A DNA stretch of 64,000 nt from Parachryseolinea silvisoli (GTDB lineage: Bacteria; Bacteroidota; Bacteroidia; Cytophagales; Cyclobacteriaceae), in contig NZ_JAIOAO010000002.1 in NCBI RefSeq assembly GCF_021190955.1, positions 620,001 to 684,000 on the forward strand, given 5' to 3'. A program made the translations under genes and the position numbers. Below are positions 21,848 through 37,040 of this stretch, in pieces. Below the pieces are notes generated by a model. The model searched no databases and was not told the origin of the DNA. It saw only the letters and a list, made by a program, of their open reading frames with translations. Numbering within the stretch: position 1 is the stretch's first letter; every line of letters starts with the position of its first letter.

Positions 21848-22786
21848 TTAGGAGTGTAAGCGCTTGCGCAGCTCCTGATACTCCTGCCACATGTCATGCA
21901 GTATATCTGCCGCCGGCTGAACCTGGCGAAGGGCACCCGCTACCTGGCCGATCTCTAATTCACCCGCGTCGAGGTCTCCTTCAAATATACCGAGGCGAGC
22001 CCGGCGCTTCCCTAACAGTGTGCTGAGTTCTTGCACACTCGCACCTTGCCGCTCGGCGGCTTGCACTTCATCTGAAAACTTATTGCGAATCAGGCGCACC
22101 GGCGCCAGCTGTTTTAAAATCAGCACCGTTTCACCTTCTGTCGATGTGGTGACACGTTGTTTAAACCGTTCATGAGCAGAAGACTCTTCACTGACGGCAA
22201 AGCGACTGCCAACCTGAAAGCCATCGGCACCCAATGCTTCGCACGCCAACATCGCACGACCACCGGCAATGCCGCCCGCGGCCAGCAGGGGTACAGTGAT
22301 AGCATCGCGCACCATGGGAATCAATACCAACGTAGTGGTCTCTTCACGACCATTGTGGCCGCCGGCCTCGAAGCCTTCGGCAACAATTGCATCGGCGCCA
22401 GCCTGCACTGCCTTTCGTGCAAACTTGACACTTGACACTACGTGTACCACTGTAATGCCGGCTTGTTTCAGAAAGCCAGTCCATGTGCCGGGGTTGCCGG
22501 CTGACGTAAAGACAATTGGCACCTGCTCTTCGACAATGATGTTCATCAGCAGATCGATCTCCGGATACAGCAACGGCACGTTTACCCCAAACGGTTTGGT
22601 GGTGGCCACTTTACACTTTTGAATGTGTTCGCGAAGCACTTGCGGGTGCATGGAACCGGCGCCGATCAGACCCAGACCGCCGGCATTGCTCACGGCCGAG
22701 GCCAGCCGCCAGCCGCTGCACCACACCATGCCGGCTTGAACAATGGGAATCTCGATCTTGAAAAGTTGTTGAATTCGCTGGTTCAT
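21848..22786 (-). CDS. Nitronate monooxygenase (2-nitropropane dioxygenase family)
   Basis: 312 residues, a TIM-barrel FMN enzyme. N-terminal IPIVQAGMVWCSGWRLASAV, FMN-site GGLGLIGAGSM, the catalytic His in EGFEAGGHNG and the phosphate-binding LLAAGGIAGGRAML with ADGFQVGSRF are all present. It oxidises alkyl nitronates to carbonyl compounds and nitrite; some family members act instead as enoyl reductases, so the substrate is not certain. It is a single gene with a 370-bp non-coding region upstream. Confidence 0.9.
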   Translation of the reverse strand: MNQRIQQLFKIEIPIVQAGMVWCSGWRLASAVSNAGGLGLIGAGSMHPQVLREHIQKCKVATTKPFGVNVPLLYPEIDLLMNIIVEEQVPIVFTSAGNPGTWTGFLKQAGITVVHVVSSVKFARKAVQAGADAIVAEGFEAGGHNGREETTTLVLIPMVRDAITVPLLAAGGIAGGRAMLACEALGADGFQVGSRFAVSEESSAHERFKQRVTTSTEGETVLILKQLAPVRLIRNKFSDEVQAAERQGASVQELSTLLGKRRARLGIFEGDLDAGELEIGQVAGALRQVQPAADILHDMWQEYQELRKRLHS

Positions 22787-22882
22787 ACTAGTTGAAAAAA
22801 TAGTTAATCCGGTTCATTTTCTGTCCCCAATTTGTGCAAAGATTTATGCACTTTTTTAGGGCTGTTTCTTAGTCGAAAAAAA

Positions 22883-22992
22883 GGCCCTTTTTTGGGCCTC
22901 TAAAGTTGTCCACAAATTTGAGACGGTCTGATTTGGGTTTAACTTGCTGATTATCATTACGATGAGAGGAAACATAATGGTAATGTGGATAA
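22883..22992. other. Intergenic region with a hairpin and two DnaA-box-like sites
   Basis: The gap between the nitronate monooxygenase and TlpA-like genes (22787-23154) holds a GGCCC/GGGCC hairpin with a T-rich loop, TTGTCCACA at 22906-22914 (one mismatch) and a perfect DnaA box TGTGGATAA at 22984-22992. No gene is supported here. DnaA may regulate a neighbour, or these may be chance matches. Confidence 0.4.
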
Positions 22993-23154
22993 AAGGTTTA
23001 AAATGTGGAATTCTTTTGTTGCTTTTTTCAAGGCTATTATAACTACCTGAATTTTAAGGTTTTTCAGGGTCATAAATGAAAGCTTTTCATCAAGCGTTAT
23101 AAACATTCTGGCCGGGGTTTTGAACATCCCGGTTTTCCAAACGTTTTTTACACC

Positions 23155-24362: not shown

Positions 24363-25061
24363 TCAGGCTGCTGCAATACAGGCAATGCGGATTTGGCCAC
24401 AACCCGCATCGGTCAGAGCCCGAACGCATGCTTCCAGGGTGGCGCCGGTGGTGACGACATCGTCTACCAGCAGCAGATTTCTGCCGGCGATTTCACGTGA
24501 AACATTTACACGAAATACATTTTGTACGTTTTCCCATCGTTCCAGCCGCGTTTTGCGTGTTTGGGTTATTGTCTTGATCGTGCGCACGACCGCTTTTTCG
24601 GAATACGGAATGTGTAAGGCTGATGCCAGTCCGGCGGCAAAACAGGCGCTTTGATTGTACCCGCGCTTTCGTTGTCGACTGGGATGAAGCGGAATGGGTA
24701 CGATCAGATCAACCGATGCGGCCTGGTCGGTTTGCAAAAGTCGCGCGCCGTATAATTCCCCGAGCGCATTTCCGACGTCAGGCTGGTGGCCGTACTTGAG
24801 TGCATATAACAATCGCTGCACACGGCTGTCTTTGGAAAACTTCAAAAGCGCCTGTGCTGCGTGTATCGGCATAAAGCCCGAAAGGCGTTGGTACAACAAG
24901 TTTTTAGGGTCCAGGTGATGGTCTGTGTACGGTAACTCGAGCAGGCACGCCGAGCAAATAATGGGTTCGCCTTTGACCCGTGGGTGGGTGCAGGCTGCAC
25001 AAAGACGCGGAAAGAAGAGCGAAACAAAATCGGAAAAGATAGACTCGAGAGAATTCGCCAT
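24363..25061 (-). CDS. comF: ComF family phosphoribosyltransferase-like protein
   Basis: 232 residues from the ATG at 25061 (MANSLESIFSDFVSLFFPRL). The frame runs to 25202 but would then cross the promoter of the divergent gene. An N-terminal zinc ribbon has LCAACTH and ICSAC (two Cys-x-x-Cys pairs). The PRTase domain has the PRPP-binding motif LLLVDDVVTTGATL. ComF supports DNA uptake or replication restart in other bacteria. A parS-like palindrome lies inside the gene at 24489-24504. Confidence 0.92.
   Translation of the reverse strand: MANSLESIFSDFVSLFFPRLCAACTHPRVKGEPIICSACLLELPYTDHHLDPKNLLYQRLSGFMPIHAAQALLKFSKDSRVQRLLYALKYGHQPDVGNALGELYGARLLQTDQAASVDLIVPIPLHPSRQRKRGYNQSACFAAGLASALHIPYSEKAVVRTIKTITQTRKTRLERWENVQNVFRVNVSREIAGRNLLLVDDVVTTGATLEACVRALTDAGCGQIRIACIAAA
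24489..24504. other. parS-like site within comF
   Basis: GATTTCACGTGAAACA matches the parS consensus TGTTTCACGTGAAACA at 14 of 16 positions, including the central 12-bp palindrome. Confidence 0.5.
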
Positions 25062-30194: not shown

Positions 30195-30417
30195 TGTTCC
30201 ACGTGAAACATAGAACGCAGAAATTAAGATAAAAGAAAATGTTCCACGTGGAACATTATAGATAAACGATGGTGACACTCAGAGTCAGCACAAACATCAT
30301 GTTCCACGTGGAACACCATGTTCTAAACCACTGAATCCCCGATATATGTTCCACGTGAAACAAAATGTGGAAATGTGGATGGATTTTGTGGGCAACTTTG
30401 ATGTTCCACGTGGAACG
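30195..30417. other. parS: Cluster of five parS-like centromere sites
   Basis: The ybeY-mnmG gap contains five 16-bp sites with the core GTTCCACGTG: TGTTCCACGTGAAACA at 30195-30210 and 30347-30362, TGTTCCACGTGGAACA at 30240-30255 and 30300-30315, and TGTTCCACGTGGAACG at 30402-30417. Centres are 45, 60, 47 and 55 bp apart. They match the ParB-binding parS consensus at 14 to 16 positions if the C/G variants at the two mirror positions are allowed. Known role: ParB loading, origin segregation and condensin recruitment. No parA or parB gene lies in the window. Confidence 0.85.
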
Positions 30418-30439: not shown

Positions 30440-32305
30440 ATGATGTTTCCAGAGTATGACGTCATAGTAGTAGGAGCGGGGCATGCCGGCTGTGAAGCGG
30501 CACATGCCGCAGCCATGATGGGCTCGAAGGTATTACTAGTGACGATGAACATGAACACCATCGCCCAGATGTCGTGTAACCCGGCGATGGGCGGTGTAGC
30601 AAAAGGCCAGATTGTGCGAGAGATCGATGCATTGGGGGGAATGTCCGGCATTATCTCCGACAAGTCCGCCATTCAGTTCAGAATGTTGAATAGGTCCAAG
30701 GGGCCAGCTATGTGGAGTCCTCGTACACAGAATGATCGCATGAGATTCTCTGAAGAATGGCGGCTAGCGCTGGAAAGAACTCCAAACCTTGACTTCTGGC
30801 AGGAAACCGTTAAAGAAATCCTGGTAAAGGATGGTAAAGCCATAGGAGTGAAGACTTCCTTAGGGCTGGAGATTAAATCAAAGTCCGTGGTACTCACGAA
30901 TGGTACCTTCCTGAACGGAAAGATCCATATCGGTGAAAAGAACTTCGGGGGAGGACGTGCGGCGGAAACATCTGCTACTGGCCTCACTGAACAGCTCATA
31001 CGCCTGGGGTTTGAAGCGGGTAGAATGAAAACCGGCACTCCCCCTCGCATAGACGGCAGAAGTCTGGACTATTCCAAGATGGAAGAGCAACCTGGTGACG
31101 AGATGCCCGGTAAGTTCTCCTATTCAGATACAACGCCCTTGGGTAAACAAGTCAGCTGTTGGATTACCTACACCAACGATGATGTTCACAAGGAGCTCCA
31201 AAAGGGATTCGATCGATCGCCCATGTTCCAGGGACGCATTAAAGGTTTAGGCCCTCGCTATTGTCCGTCCATAGAAGATAAGATCAATCGATTTGCCGAG
31301 AGAGATCGCCATCAGATCTTTGTAGAGCCAGAGGGCTGGAATACAGTCGAAATCTATGTTAACGGTTTCTCTACTTCCTTGCCTGAAGACATACAATATC
31401 AGGCACTACGAAAGATTCCGGGTTTCGAGAACGCAAAGATGTTCCGCCCGGGATATGCCATTGAATACGACTTCTTTCCACCGACACAGTTAAAAATGAG
31501 CCTGGAGACTCATTTAATAGAAGGACTATTCTTTGCCGGCCAGATCAACGGCACTACCGGCTATGAAGAAGCCGCATGTCAAGGGTTAATGGCGGGAATC
31601 AATGCCCACCACATAGCGCACGAAAGGGAGCCCTTGATTCTAAAAAGATCTGAGGCGTATATCGGCGTATTAATAGATGATCTTGTCAATAAGGGCACAC
31701 AAGAGCCGTATCGTATGTTTACTTCCAGGGCGGAGTACCGCATCCTTCTGCGCCAGGATAACGCCGACCTTCGTTTGACAGAGATTGGTCATAAGATCGG
31801 CCTTGCCACCCAGGAACGATATGATTCTTTCACCCGGAAGAAGAGCGCGATTGAACAATTGCTGAAGGAGCTCAATACAGTTAAAGTAGAACCCGACACT
31901 ATAAATACAGGTCTGGAAAATATCCAAACTTCCGCTATACGCGAAAAGGTTACCGCTGCACACCTGTTACGCCGTCCGCAAATAGGTATGCCTGAACTGA
32001 GGCAGTTAAGTACAGCACTAAAGGAATTATTGGACAACTATAGCATCGAAGTACAAGAAGAAGCAGAGATCGATATTAAATACGAGAGCTACATCGAACG
32101 CGAGCAAAAACTCGCAGAGAAGATTGGCAGCCTGGAAGAATACAGGATCAAACCTGATTTTGACTACGATCGGGTAAAGGCTCTCTCTTCGGAAGCCCGC
32201 GAAAAACTGAAACGAATTAAACCCGAAACCCTCGGACAGGCGACACGCATCAGCGGTGTTTCTCCGTCTGATATTTCTGTACTAACCATATACATGGGCA
32301 AATGA
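30440..32305 (+). CDS. mnmG: tRNA uridine-5-carboxymethylaminomethyl modification enzyme MnmG
   Basis: 621 residues, full length. N-terminal FAD-binding site VIVVGAGHAGCEAAHAAAMM, the conserved SCNPAMGGVAKGQIVREID block, and GLGPRYCPSIEDKINRF with the functional Cys. With MnmE it modifies the wobble uridine of several tRNAs. It is the historical gidA gene, often found beside the replication origin, and here it starts 22 bp after the parS cluster. Its TGA overlaps the ATG of the methyltransferase gene by four bases. Confidence 0.97.
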   Translation: MMFPEYDVIVVGAGHAGCEAAHAAAMMGSKVLLVTMNMNTIAQMSCNPAMGGVAKGQIVREIDALGGMSGIISDKSAIQFRMLNRSKGPAMWSPRTQNDRMRFSEEWRLALERTPNLDFWQETVKEILVKDGKAIGVKTSLGLEIKSKSVVLTNGTFLNGKIHIGEKNFGGGRAAETSATGLTEQLIRLGFEAGRMKTGTPPRIDGRSLDYSKMEEQPGDEMPGKFSYSDTTPLGKQVSCWITYTNDDVHKELQKGFDRSPMFQGRIKGLGPRYCPSIEDKINRFAERDRHQIFVEPEGWNTVEIYVNGFSTSLPEDIQYQALRKIPGFENAKMFRPGYAIEYDFFPPTQLKMSLETHLIEGLFFAGQINGTTGYEEAACQGLMAGINAHHIAHEREPLILKRSEAYIGVLIDDLVNKGTQEPYRMFTSRAEYRILLRQDNADLRLTEIGHKIGLATQERYDSFTRKKSAIEQLLKELNTVKVEPDTINTGLENIQTSAIREKVTAAHLLRRPQIGMPELRQLSTALKELLDNYSIEVQEEAEIDIKYESYIEREQKLAEKIGSLEEYRIKPDFDYDRVKALSSEAREKLKRIKPETLGQATRISGVSPSDISVLTIYMGK

Positions 32306-33186
32306 TCGACATCAAGATATGTCCCGTATGCGGCGGACAAAATCTGCAGCATCTTCTCTCCAGCAAGGACAACACCGTATCCCAGGAAGTATTCGAGCTC
32401 CGCCAATGTCAGACCTGCAAGCTTGGTATCACCACGCCCAGGCCTTCTGACAAGGACCTACATCAGTACTACCTCTCGGACGACTACATCTCTCACTCCA
32501 ACAAAGGCACAACCCTGGTTGACAAAGCATACCTGATCGCCCGGAGCTTCACCCTTAAATGGAAACTTCGGATTGTTCAGCAAGGCAATACAACACCCGG
32601 AAAGATTCTTGACTACGGCTGTGGCACAGGCGAGTTCTTATCAGCCTGTAGAAATGCCGCCTGGACCACAGTCGGAGTTGAACCGTCTCCAGCCGCAAGG
32701 GAGCAAGCGAAAAAAATCACAGGCTCACCAGTCTACGAATCTCTTCTGTCTGTCACAGATGAGAACTTCTCGGTCATAACACTATGGCATGTACTCGAGC
32801 ATGTAAGCGATCTTGATCAAACCCTATCCCTCCTAAAAAGCAAGCTTGCCGAAAATGGCACAATCTTTATTGCAGTACCAAACCACAGCAGCTGGGATGG
32901 ACAGCACTATAAAGAACACTGGGCAGGATATGATACTCCGCGACACCTCTGGCATTTTTCACGTGAAACAATGAAAGCACTGATAACAAAGAATGGAATG
33001 AAAGCCGTGGGAACAATCCCCATGAAGCTGGACTCCTTTTATATCAGCCTGCTGAGCGAGAAATACAAAAACAAACGGTCGTCGCTGACAGGCATGCTCA
33101 AAGCAACCTTCAATGGCTTCAAATCAAATGTAAAAGCCTCAAAATCAGGCGATTACTCAAGTCTTATCTATATCGTCAGAAAATGA
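32302..33186 (+). CDS. Class I SAM-dependent methyltransferase with N-terminal zinc ribbon
   Basis: 294 residues. An N-terminal zinc ribbon (KICPVCGG and LRQCQTCKLGI) precedes a Rossmann methyltransferase fold with motif I ILDYGCGTGEFLSA and LWHVLEHVSDLD, the pattern of the Methyltransf_23 group acting on sugars, lipids or small metabolites. The target is unknown. It overlaps mnmG and the next gene by four bases each (ATGA), forming one translationally coupled operon. A parS-like site lies inside at 32955-32970. Confidence 0.9.
   Translation: MIDIKICPVCGGQNLQHLLSSKDNTVSQEVFELRQCQTCKLGITTPRPSDKDLHQYYLSDDYISHSNKGTTLVDKAYLIARSFTLKWKLRIVQQGNTTPGKILDYGCGTGEFLSACRNAAWTTVGVEPSPAAREQAKKITGSPVYESLLSVTDENFSVITLWHVLEHVSDLDQTLSLLKSKLAENGTIFIAVPNHSSWDGQHYKEHWAGYDTPRHLWHFSRETMKALITKNGMKAVGTIPMKLDSFYISLLSEKYKNKRSSLTGMLKATFNGFKSNVKASKSGDYSSLIYIVRK
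32955..32970. other. parS-like site within the methyltransferase gene
   Basis: TTTTTCACGTGAAACA matches the consensus TGTTTCACGTGAAACA at 15 of 16 positions, the best TTTC-type match in the window. Confidence 0.6.
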
Positions 33187-34880
33187 TCGTCAGAACAGTC
33201 TTACCCTTCCTCCTATACGCCCTCTTTCTCCTCTCGTGTGCGCGCCAAACTGCCCCGACAGGGGGTCCTAAGGACACAATCCCGCCCGTGCTGGTCAAGG
33301 CAGTGCCGTACATCAACCAAACGAATTTCAAAGACAAGGAGCTCACGCTGACGTTCAATGAACCGATCCTTCTGAATAACCCGAAAGAGCAACTCATCAT
33401 TACTCCTGACATTCAAAAAAAATATAAGATCACCGTCAAAAAGAATCAGGTAAATATTGTTCTCGACACAGATCTGAAAGACAGCACCACGTATACTTTC
33501 AACTTCCGCGACGCCATTCAAGATATCACGGAAAAGAATCCGGCCAAGAATATAAAGCTTGCCATCAGTACAGGCCCTTATGTCGACTCACTTATTATCC
33601 AGGGATTAATCTACGACCCATTACGGCCGGTCCCTGTAAAAGAAGCAACCGTAGCGTTATATGAAAGCGACACATTCAACATCTTTAAACACGCTCCCGT
33701 CTACCTTACCAAAACCGATGAGACCGGACTGTACGCCATCGAAAACCTAAAGCCAGGCACATACCATGTCTTTGCCATCGATGACAAAAACAGAAACTTA
33801 ATTGTCGACAGCAAAACCGAACTGTACGGCTTTATCGCAGACCCAATCGAGCTACGACGCAACCAAAAACAAATCGATATTCCCATCGTCAAACTTGACA
33901 CGCGATCACTTAAGCTCACAAACTCCAGACCGTACAACACCTATTATAACATTAAGCTCTCCAAAAATCTCGCCACCTATAAACTCTCCTCCGAGGCTAC
34001 CCCATGGTTATTTTCATCCTTTGGAGAAGACCAGTCGAACATTCGGATTTACAATACTTTCAACAAGGCCGATAGTACCGGCATTAGACTCCAGGGACGC
34101 GACAGTGTCTACAACCGCATTGACACCGTTCTCTTTGCAAAATTCACAGACCGCGAAGTGAAACCAGAAGCGTTCACATCCAAGAGTGAAGGCTTTAAAG
34201 TGTTTGCCCGCAAGGGACTCATCACCGGTAAAATACAATTCAACAAGCCACTCTTCGAAATCAACTACGACAGCATCCTGTATCAAATTGACTCCACCAA
34301 AACCATTACCTTTTCCAAAGCTGATATTCAATGGGATTCCCTTCGAAACAGGCTAGTCATTCAAAAGAATTTCGACCCGAAACTCATCATCGAACCGAAA
34401 GTAACCGAAAAGCCAAAAGCAAAACCTACCCAAACCGAGAAAGGCGCGGCTAAACAACAACCTAAGAAAGTCATCAAAAACAGATTCTACCTGGGAACAG
34501 CTGCTTTTGTCAGTATTGAAAACGACAGCTCAAAAGCATCCGAAGAAACCTTGCGACCCATTACCCTGGAAGAAACAGGCGTCATCAGCATGCACATCCA
34601 AACAAAAGAAGAACATTTCTTCGTCCAATTACTCGACAAATCCAATAATGTCGTTCGAGTAATTCACGACAACAAGAACGCAATCTTCGACGATGTCATG
34701 CCTGCCGAATACCAAATCAGGCTTATAATCGACCACGATGGCAACGGCGAATGGTCTCCCGGAAACTTCTTCCGAAAGACCGAACCGGAGCCAACGATCT
34801 ATTATCTGAACGAAAAAGACAATCCTACGATCAATCTGAAGGCAAATTGGGAGATCGGACCTTTGTTGATAACCTATTGA
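33183..34880 (+). CDS. Ig-like (SbsA) domain lipoprotein
   Basis: 565 residues. A signal peptide with lipobox LLSC near residue 19 is followed by ARQTAPTGGPKDTIPPVLVK, the characteristic start of Bacteroidetes SbsA Ig-like proteins. The Ig-like domain (ELTLTFNEPILLNNP) and a carboxypeptidase-regulatory-like repeat (YAIENLKPGTYHVFAIDDKN) follow. It should be an outer-membrane lipoprotein of unknown function. Its codons on this strand are C/A-rich, unlike genes beyond 35 kb. It ends at the candidate origin. Confidence 0.88.
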   Translation: MIVRTVLPFLLYALFLLSCARQTAPTGGPKDTIPPVLVKAVPYINQTNFKDKELTLTFNEPILLNNPKEQLIITPDIQKKYKITVKKNQVNIVLDTDLKDSTTYTFNFRDAIQDITEKNPAKNIKLAISTGPYVDSLIIQGLIYDPLRPVPVKEATVALYESDTFNIFKHAPVYLTKTDETGLYAIENLKPGTYHVFAIDDKNRNLIVDSKTELYGFIADPIELRRNQKQIDIPIVKLDTRSLKLTNSRPYNTYYNIKLSKNLATYKLSSEATPWLFSSFGEDQSNIRIYNTFNKADSTGIRLQGRDSVYNRIDTVLFAKFTDREVKPEAFTSKSEGFKVFARKGLITGKIQFNKPLFEINYDSILYQIDSTKTITFSKADIQWDSLRNRLVIQKNFDPKLIIEPKVTEKPKAKPTQTEKGAAKQQPKKVIKNRFYLGTAAFVSIENDSSKASEETLRPITLEETGVISMHIQTKEEHFFVQLLDKSNNVVRVIHDNKNAIFDDVMPAEYQIRLIIDHDGNGEWSPGNFFRKTEPEPTIYYLNEKDNPTINLKANWEIGPLLITY

Positions 34881-35215
34881 TAACACGCGGACATCTTGTG
34901 GATAAACCAGACGCTCTATCGGGAAAAGTCGATAAAAGCCAACAAACGGCGCACGGTCTACGTTCTCCGTGGACAACATGAAAGATACCCACAACCATTC
35001 ACATTGAACCTTATACACACATCACTTGTCTACACACAATCTGGATGTTAATAACTATATTAAGTACCTGAATTAGAGAAGATTGATCTCCAATAGATAT
35101 CTACATACTATTCACAGACCCAGAAACTCAAAACTTGTACACAATTGAACACCACTAATAATAACTATAATATATATAATATAATAAATACAATAAGGCC
35201 CAGCCTGATCTGGAC
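34861..35215. other. oriC: Candidate chromosomal replication origin (oriC)
   Basis: An AT-rich segment after the Ig-like gene. It holds a perfect DnaA box TGTGGATAA (34897-34905), TTATACACA (35011-35019, one mismatch), ATACCCACA (34985-34993), CGTGGACAA (34968-34976) and TTGTACACA (35135-35143), each with two mismatches, plus a TTGATAAC pair 11 bp apart (34866-34884). At 35155-35190 an almost pure A/T run could unwind. mnmG and the parS cluster lie 2.5-5 kb away, a classic origin neighbourhood. GC skew of sampled lines changes sign here. The call is inference and needs cumulative skew or marker-frequency data. Confidence 0.6.
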
Positions 35216-37040
35216 AACCATGTTCGTGCTGCTTAGCTTCTTGTCCATGGGACAGAACCAATCGGAAATTCAGTTAGCCAACGAATACCTGCTCAAGGGC
35301 GACAAAAAAAAAGCGGCTGAGCTGTACCGCGACCTGGCCAAACAAGATTTCAACACGCCGTTTGTTTATAACAATTATTTAACCGTGCTGTTGGATCTGG
35401 GGGCGTATGATGAGGCGAGTGGATATCTGAAAAGATTGTCGAAAAGAGATCCGGAAAATTTACAATACAAATTGGATGTTGGCCTGGTCTATGTGAAGTC
35501 CGGTGATTTGAACAAAGCCGATCGATATTTTCGTGAACTGATCAGTGAAAACAAAACCGCGGTGCCACGTGCCAAGATGATGGCAGAATATTTTTCGTCG
35601 CGCTCGCTCGCCGACTACGGTATCGTAACGCTGACCGAAAGCCGCGACGCGTTGGGCAACCCCAGCCTCTTTAGCCTGGACCTGGCCATGCTCTATCGCT
35701 TGAAAGGCAACCGCGATAAAATGGTGACCGAGTACCTAAACTATGTCACCCAAAATTCCGCGAACATTCAGTACGTAAAAAATATTATGCAGGCGTTGCT
35801 AACAGAACCCGACGAGTTGGTAAGCCTTGAGAATCTCTTGTATGATCGCGTTCAGAAATTTCCGGATGTCGAAGTCTATTCGGATCTTCTCATTTGGGTG
35901 ACGATCCAGCAAAAAAATTTTTACGCAGCCTTCGTCCAGGCGCGAGCCTACGACAAGCGCTACAAACGTGAAGGCGAAAAATGTATTGAGGTGGCACGGG
36001 TCGCTGTGGACAACGAAGATTTTGAGAACGCCGCGAAGATCTATCGCTACGTGGCGCGTGAATATCCGCGAACCTCCAACTACCTCATCGCGACGTTGGG
36101 GCTAATTCGTACGCGCGAAGCAAAGTTGAAAAAGATCTACCCCGTGAGTGTCGACTCGGTTCGCACGCTGATCACGGATTACAAAAAATTTATAAAACAA
36201 TATCCCGACAACGCCAATGCGTTGGAAGCCACGCGCAGTCAGGCGTTACTCTTTGCGAACTATCTCGATCAAAAGGATTCTGCCGTTCATGTGTTGACAA
36301 CATTAATCAAGAACCCCAGAACTTCGCTTTACCTCAAGTCGAAAGCGAAACTCGATCTCGGTGACATTTATTTGCTAAAGGGTGAGCCCTGGGAGTCGAG
36401 CCTGTTGTATTCGCAGGTTGAAAAAACGCAAAAGGAAAATCCCGTTGGCTACGAGGCAAAGTTGAAGAACGCAAAGCTCTCATACTACAAAGGAAATTTT
36501 AAGCTCGCCCAGGAGCACCTCGATATCCTGAAAGAAGCTACGACCCGTGAGATTGCAAACGACGCATTGGACTTGAGCATGCGGATAAAAGAAAATATCG
36601 CTTTTGACTCGGCGGGTGAAGCGCTGAAAGAATACGCATCGATCGAGCTACTGTTGTACCAAAATAAAACGAATGATGCTTTGAGCCGACTGGGCAAATT
36701 GAAACAAGGTGTCTCTGCCTCGGGAACAACTTTTTCAAACCAGGGTATATTGGACGATGTCTACTGGCTGGAAGCGAACATCCATATGCAGCGGGGTGAG
36801 TTTGAACCGGCGCTGGCCCTGCTTCAGAAAATTCAACAGGAATTCGGTGAAGACATTCTTGCCGACGACGCTTATTTTTTGGAGGGCGATATCTACGAGC
36901 GTCAACTAAAAAATAAAGAAAAAGCGATGGAAATCTACCGGGACTTCCTCAACAAATATCCCGGGAGCGTTTATGCTGCAGAGGCGCGCAAGCGCTACCG
37001 TGCATTGCGTGGTGACTTCACCGAGCAACCACAACTTTGA
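35145..37040 (+). CDS. Tetratricopeptide repeat protein, exported
   Basis: About 606-631 residues. The TTG at 35145 is taken because residues 18-37 (RPSLIWTTMFVLLSFLSMGQ) make a convincing signal peptide; starting at the ATG at 35220 would leave only a 10-residue hydrophobic stretch. Many TPR units fill the rest (EIQLANEYLLKGDKKKAAEL, YIKSGDLNKADRYF-type, KEKAMEIYRDFLNKYPGSVY at the end). Probably a periplasmic scaffold; function unknown. The first codons overlap the AT-rich part of the candidate origin, so the true start is uncertain. Confidence 0.82.
   Translation: MNTTNNNYNIYNIINTIRPSLIWTTMFVLLSFLSMGQNQSEIQLANEYLLKGDKKKAAELYRDLAKQDFNTPFVYNNYLTVLLDLGAYDEASGYLKRLSKRDPENLQYKLDVGLVYVKSGDLNKADRYFRELISENKTAVPRAKMMAEYFSSRSLADYGIVTLTESRDALGNPSLFSLDLAMLYRLKGNRDKMVTEYLNYVTQNSANIQYVKNIMQALLTEPDELVSLENLLYDRVQKFPDVEVYSDLLIWVTIQQKNFYAAFVQARAYDKRYKREGEKCIEVARVAVDNEDFENAAKIYRYVAREYPRTSNYLIATLGLIRTREAKLKKIYPVSVDSVRTLITDYKKFIKQYPDNANALEATRSQALLFANYLDQKDSAVHVLTTLIKNPRTSLYLKSKAKLDLGDIYLLKGEPWESSLLYSQVEKTQKENPVGYEAKLKNAKLSYYKGNFKLAQEHLDILKEATTREIANDALDLSMRIKENIAFDSAGEALKEYASIELLLYQNKTNDALSRLGKLKQGVSASGTTFSNQGILDDVYWLEANIHMQRGEFEPALALLQKIQQEFGEDILADDAYFLEGDIYERQLKNKEKAMEIYRDFLNKYPGSVYAAEARKRYRALRGDFTEQPQL

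Follow-up and report, generated by a model that had tools for sequence, protein, structure and literature searches.

A probable chromosomal replication origin between an Ig-like gene and a TPR-repeat gene in Parachryseolinea silvisoli

The Ig-TPR gap and its DnaA boxes

The window, by which we mean the whole 64,000-nucleotide stretch analyzed here, corresponds to C6:620001-684000 of the Parachryseolinea silvisoli genome (7.95 Mb in 13 contigs). At about 655 kb of contig C6, it contains a gap between a gene for an Ig-like protein and a gene for a TPR-repeat protein (Table 1; positions are those of the window unless a contig is named). The stretch free of both open frames is 34881-35144. As stated in a preliminary description of this DNA, mnmG lies upstream. 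A methyltransferase gene and the Ig gene separate it from the gap. Judged by the TPR protein, the nearest named relative is Dawidia soli (96%), with Chryseolinea lacunae at 77%, and a signal-peptide-like stretch is visible by eye near its N-terminus.

Table 1. Features of the Ig-TPR gap and its surroundings, in window coordinates.
Feature	Position	Strand	Basis or remark
Five parS-like sites	30195..30417		between ybeY and mnmG
mnmG (gidA)	30440..32305	+	ends 2.6 kb from gap
Sixth parS-like site	32955..32970		1 mismatch; inside methyltransferase gene
Ig-like (Big_5) gene	33183..34880	+	lipoprotein-like by N-terminus; 3' end overlaps first two DnaA boxes
Candidate oriC (DnaA-box array and putative unwinding module)	34861..35200		box density, profile, clade alignment
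DnaA box TTATCAACA	34864..34872	-	1 mismatch; within Ig gene end
DnaA box TTATCAATA	34875..34883	-	2 mismatches; 11 bp from box at 34864
Perfect DnaA box TTATCCACA	34897..34905	-	motif scan
Weak DnaA box	34927..34935	-	2 mismatches
Weak DnaA box	34968..34976	-	2 mismatches
Weak DnaA box	34985..34993	+	2 mismatches; several relatives have TTACCAACA or TTACCCACA at the aligned site
DnaA box TTATACACA	35011..35019	+	1 mismatch
Weak DnaA box	35026..35034	+	2 mismatches
Weak DnaA box	35046..35054	-	2 mismatches; aligns with TGTTAACAA in three relatives
Weak DnaA box	35097..35105	+	2 mismatches
Weak DnaA box	35108..35116	+	2 mismatches
DnaA box TTGTACACA of the putative unwinding module	35135..35143	+	2 mismatches; TTATCCACA in several relatives
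11-bp spacer	35144..35154	+	in-frame start codon TTG 35145
TPR-repeat protein gene	35145..37040	+	open frame; 631 aa from TTG 35145
Three DnaA-trio-like triplets, 3'-GAT-TAT-TAT-5'	35155..35163	-	motif rule from excerpts of PMC8287927
AT-rich run, proposed DNA unwinding element	35155..35190		codons 4 to 16 of TPR frame from TTG 35145

The region 34861-35215 contains 12 DnaA boxes matching TTATCCACA, one of them perfect, two with one mismatch and nine with two, and a thirteenth (35209-35217) straddles its right edge. The preliminary description had recorded the perfect box at 34897, at least four near matches and an 11-bp-spaced TTGATAAC pair. All of these were recovered, the pair at 34866 and 34877, and the one-mismatch boxes are at 34864 and 35011. 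The word of the first box is identical in seven of the 12 aligned relatives and is TTATCCACA in an eighth. When boxes with zero, one or two mismatches to TTATCCACA are weighted 4, 2 and 1, the gap scores 17, whereas 1000 dinucleotide shuffles of it average 2.0 and never exceed 8. Across a sample of the host genome made up of the window and 100 further stretches (1,989,424 positions of 355 bp in about 2.03 of 7.95 Mb), the top score was 18 at window position 34863, and the runner-up site in this quarter or so of the genome scored 11. A DnaA-box cluster above chance, one of the marks of an oriC, is found at the gap both by shuffling and by rank in the genome sample.

Perfect boxes alone are uninformative, with 43 genome-wide versus 34 for a reversed-pattern control, and they are likewise not strongly enriched over the reversed control in the relatives G018, G034, G036, G040 and G045. 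In the complete 9-Mb genome G040, the sole three perfect boxes, among 77, that fall within 100 bp of one another are in the gap. The gap of the complete genome G045 holds one perfect box, and two other places in that genome each carry a pair spaced by about 100 bp.

Second in DnaA-box density within the window is 22787-23141 (score 9), which holds TTGTCCACA at 22906 and a perfect TTATCCACA at 22984. It sits between divergent genes, at 21848-22786 on the minus strand and from 23155 on the plus strand, and from its sequence could possibly be a DnaA-responsive promoter or titration site.

Positions of parS and dnaA, and GC skew

With parS-like sites defined as words with up to one mismatch to TGTTNCACGTGNAACA, the whole genome contains six, all at C6:650195-652970, compared with two for the reversed-pattern control. 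Every one lies 1.9-4.7 kb upstream of the gap. Five of them had been noticed earlier, and the site at 32955 is an addition. Relatives show the same arrangement. Among 59 genomes, with the host counted, exact parS is present in 42 and a TPR match in 52. Both lie on one contig in 26 genomes, and in 24 of these parS precedes the TPR match by 4.0-5.2 kb (hand count). The two exceptions are G048, where it is 13.2 kb upstream, and G041, where parS is on the other side. Among the other genomes with exact parS, ten have the TPR match on a different contig and six have no TPR match; G028 has one additional parS on another contig. Placement of parS in the origin domain, a further property of an oriC, therefore describes all six sites of the host and 24 of the 26 testable genomes, own included. 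Words with two mismatches to parS also occur at window positions 24489 and 26725.

The dnaA gene is on C8 (125 kb) rather than C6, and the best ParB match is on C5. An origin beside dnaA, which the preliminary description had named as an outcome that would count against the gap, is not supported, as the 20 kb around that gene (C8:110-130 kb) have a best box score of 5. In the five single-contig relatives compared (G018, G034, G036, G040 and G045), 0.76 Mb or more separates dnaA from the TPR gene. DnaA of the host retains, in the last of its domains, the sequence GRDHSTVIHA, which we take to be the DnaA-box-binding motif. The complete genomes G036 and G018 carry four and three extra, weaker DnaA-family matches with equal or nearly equal scores; we assume that these may be helper genes of mobile elements.

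The GC skew agrees with an origin in the gap only loosely, and its minimum is not sharp. A skew change at the gap had originally been proposed from hand-picked lines of sequence, and over the window this did not hold up, with the cumulative skew being lowest near 10-12 kb (-1.18) and showing only a shallower second low, of about -0.55, around 34-39 kb. Across C6 the proposed sign does stand, as skew samples average -0.037 to the left of the gap and +0.017 to its right (one-sided p 0.003), and the turning point is not sharply placed. The best change point is at 840 kb (0.0367, a value reached by 26 of 5000 permutations), then come 800 kb (0.0365) and 640 kb (0.0351), with 0.0319 at the gap itself. 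Scores differ little over a range of about 620-920 kb, which includes the gap at 655 kb. In G034, the one complete relative sampled for skew, a two-arm model fits strongly (matched by 0 of 2000 permutations). The minimum falls at 6.07-6.24 Mb and the gap at 5.785 Mb, so that the two are 0.28-0.45 Mb apart. The segment G034 C1:6060026-6066014 joins four genes that match C6:570-572 kb and C6:764-769 kb, which flank the gap in the host. From these few genes we tentatively place a rearrangement breakpoint where the skew of G034 turns, possibly the product of an origin-centred inversion, and a rearrangement near 6.06 Mb could explain the offset.

These displaced turning points could be read as placing the origin up to about 200 kb away, as at C6:760-840 kb, with the gap serving as a DnaA-regulated promoter or DnaA-titrating site. 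Such a site would also be compatible with the scope of the box-cluster sampling, which covered about half of C6. We consider it very improbable. The best skew displacements oppose each other, toward the TPR side in the host and toward the mnmG side in G034, and the latter may reflect the tentative breakpoint. The parS sites cluster at the Ig-TPR gap, and the best other places in the sampled half of C6 (at about 168.6 and 576 kb) score 10 versus 18.

The conserved module and the start of the TPR gene

An Ig match adjoins the TPR gene in 37 of 45 tabulated loci (34 distinct, own included); L144 was left out of the tabulation because its match lacks the gene start. All 37 Ig-flanked loci have a box with zero or one mismatch in the gap, where about 0.1 per 500 bp is expected (12.2 per 64 kb in window shuffles), and the boxes are kept even where the TPR protein is just 40-50% identical.

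Alignment of 13 clade loci, own included, gives a consensus module of TTaTcCACA, 11 bp, a CTAATtAT-like word and then AT-rich DNA, and this succession of box, spacer, trios and AT-rich DNA recurs at the orthologous place across the clade. In the host the last element is the almost pure A/T run of 35155-35190 noted before, which direct reading of the sequence bears out. A putative AT-rich unwinding element adjoining the boxes, as an oriC should have, is found here and kept in the clade. By itself the run means little, since the own-genome sample has 27 places, 35155-35190 among them, where a 46-bp stretch is equally or more AT-rich. The module also fits the published rule for the basal unwinding system (BUS) of bacterial oriC, given in excerpts of PMC8287927 as a DnaA box deviating in no more than two bases, 0-16 bp of spacer and three or more 3'-NAN-5' triplets, through TTGTACACA, an 11-bp spacer and GAT-TAT-TAT, the minimum of three triplets. 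GAT is described in the same excerpts as the commonest triplet, above all next to the box, rather than as a rule; here the triplets are not mostly GAT, the first of the three being GAT and the second and third TAT. We assigned the strand of the trios relative to the box from the notation in the excerpts of PMC8287927. Because so loose a rule is easily met in AT-rich DNA, conservation weighs more than the fit.

A 33-bp profile of the module, built from 12 relatives with the host excluded and the close D. soli retained, scores 35.8 bits at window position 35135, compared with 15.7 for the next best match in the own-genome sample. In 20 more distant Ig-flanked loci (about 4.7-4.8 kb searched), the best profile match is in the gap in 17 and outside it in three; of the 17, six score below 10 bits and five have the reverse orientation. 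Seven loci with no Ig gene gave no convincing profile match, with one weak best match in the 500 bp upstream. The pattern ACANNTNNACANNNYTAATNATA has eight matches in 59 genomes, one per genome and all in this gap, versus three for a backward control. Because the pattern was written from the alignment, six of these matches follow from its design; the other two are in G001 (same genus) and G034, and the aligned G006 lacks it. The weight of this search lies in the absence of matches elsewhere.

The preliminary description regarded the gap as non-coding, which the comparison contradicts, in that the TPR frame opens at TTG 35145 and behaves as coding sequence. It has no stop from the end of the box through the AT run in 13 of 14 clade loci, own included. 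Between the module box and the TPR match of these loci, it contains four stops, all in L108, and the other two frames contain 50 and 46. Segment shuffles of 12 loci (L108 and L139 omitted) put the chance of no stop at 0.07-0.29 per locus and at about 7e-8 over eight lineages, one per cluster, the latter being overstated by its assumption of independence. In 12 of these loci the spacer contains an in-frame ATG or TTG, 10 or 16 bp downstream of where the box begins: TTG alone in the host and D. soli, and ATG in the ten others, in most clade relatives 6 bp further on than the TTG. L139 has no start in the spacer; in L108 the module is present, the frame is broken and a separate ATG lies further down. 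In most clade loci, N, Y and I abound in the TPR extension that precedes the signal-peptide-like stretch. A rare ATT or ATC start was also considered for the TPR gene and was dropped in favor of the in-frame start that the spacer provides.

Translation of the TPR frame from the spacer start is likely on these comparisons. Given the stop-free frame and the in-frame start, the unwinding element appears to lie inside the first TPR codons, and on balance we favor an origin whose unwinding element is built into the TPR gene in one clade, with the start codon between the last box and the DnaA-trios. In 11 of the 20 more distant loci, an in-frame ATG occurs within 45 bp before the TPR match (hand count), and in eight of these the best profile match is in the gap upstream of that ATG. 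The overlap therefore looks clade-specific. A start codon so placed would put the first TPR codons under dual selection, for melting by DnaA and for the absence of stops, and replication initiation and TPR gene expression would meet on this DNA, either as competitors or by signaling through it.

The stop-free frame across the AT module in 13 loci would also be expected if the module were conserved merely as coding sequence for the TPR N-terminus, an explanation that we find very improbable. The encoded residues vary and it is the box, the spacing and the CTAAT-like word that are mostly kept; L108 retains the module despite its broken frame and its own ATG, and in eight of the 20 distant loci the best profile match is upstream of the visible start. 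That the gap is ordinary intergenic DNA, an AT-rich TPR leader with box-like words arising from composition, gains something from the commonness of such AT-rich stretches but is scarcely credible when no composition-preserving shuffle reached the box score and the boxes persist beside such diverged TPR proteins.

Proposed initiation and comparison with known origins

Since independent lines meet at the gap, namely the top box density, the proximity of parS, the orthologous module and the sign of the C6 skew, our computational analysis upholds the earlier interpretation of this region as an oriC, and we conclude that 34861-35215 is very probably the chromosomal origin of a Dawidia/Chryseolinea-type bacterium. 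As predicted from the sequence, 34861-35200 would act as a DnaA-dependent origin in which DnaA loads on one strong and ten weaker boxes (34864-35116) and next on the module box. The DnaA filament would then cross the 11-bp spacer onto the single-stranded triplets of the minus strand and melt the adjacent AT-rich run, leading to helicase loading. Segregation of the new origins would fall to ParB bound to parS upstream. The melted DNA would in this clade be the 5' end of the TPR gene, with translation starting between the module box and the trios.

In itself, an origin is nothing new for this phylum. Predicted origins are listed in DoriC and similar databases, and oriC is reportedly mentioned in papers on Prevotella and Blattabacterium. 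Our literature search found no paper on oriC in Chryseolinea, on DnaA-trios in Bacteroidetes or on an origin element within coding DNA. A located, conserved origin provides a fixed point for sequencing-based estimates of growth rate, oriC plasmids and chromosome maps. If the unwinding element is indeed the start of a coding sequence, the locus would also be a natural system for studying DnaA-driven melting versus gene expression on shared bases.

Among known systems, Cytophaga belongs to the same order as the host, and oriC plasmids of Cytophaga hutchinsonii were reportedly described by Xu et al. in 2012; the likeness is that of an origin used experimentally within the order. Bacterial origins linked to gidA/mnmG, such as that of E. 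coli, resemble the present one in having mnmG near the origin and an array of strong and weak DnaA boxes. Unlike the E. coli type, mnmG is here 2.6 kb away, with the methyltransferase and Ig genes intervening, and five parS-like sites precede it. For the module, the reference system is the BUS, for example incC of Bacillus subtilis, as described in excerpts of PMC6669920 and PMC8287927. The module has the order of parts given in the excerpts of PMC8287927, with a box within two mismatches, an 11-bp spacer that falls in the published peak of around 10-13, three middle-A triplets of which the box-proximal one is GAT, and then AT-rich DNA. Unlike the incC type, the second and third triplets here are TAT, and the module is located away from dnaA and appears to overlap a coding sequence in the clade.
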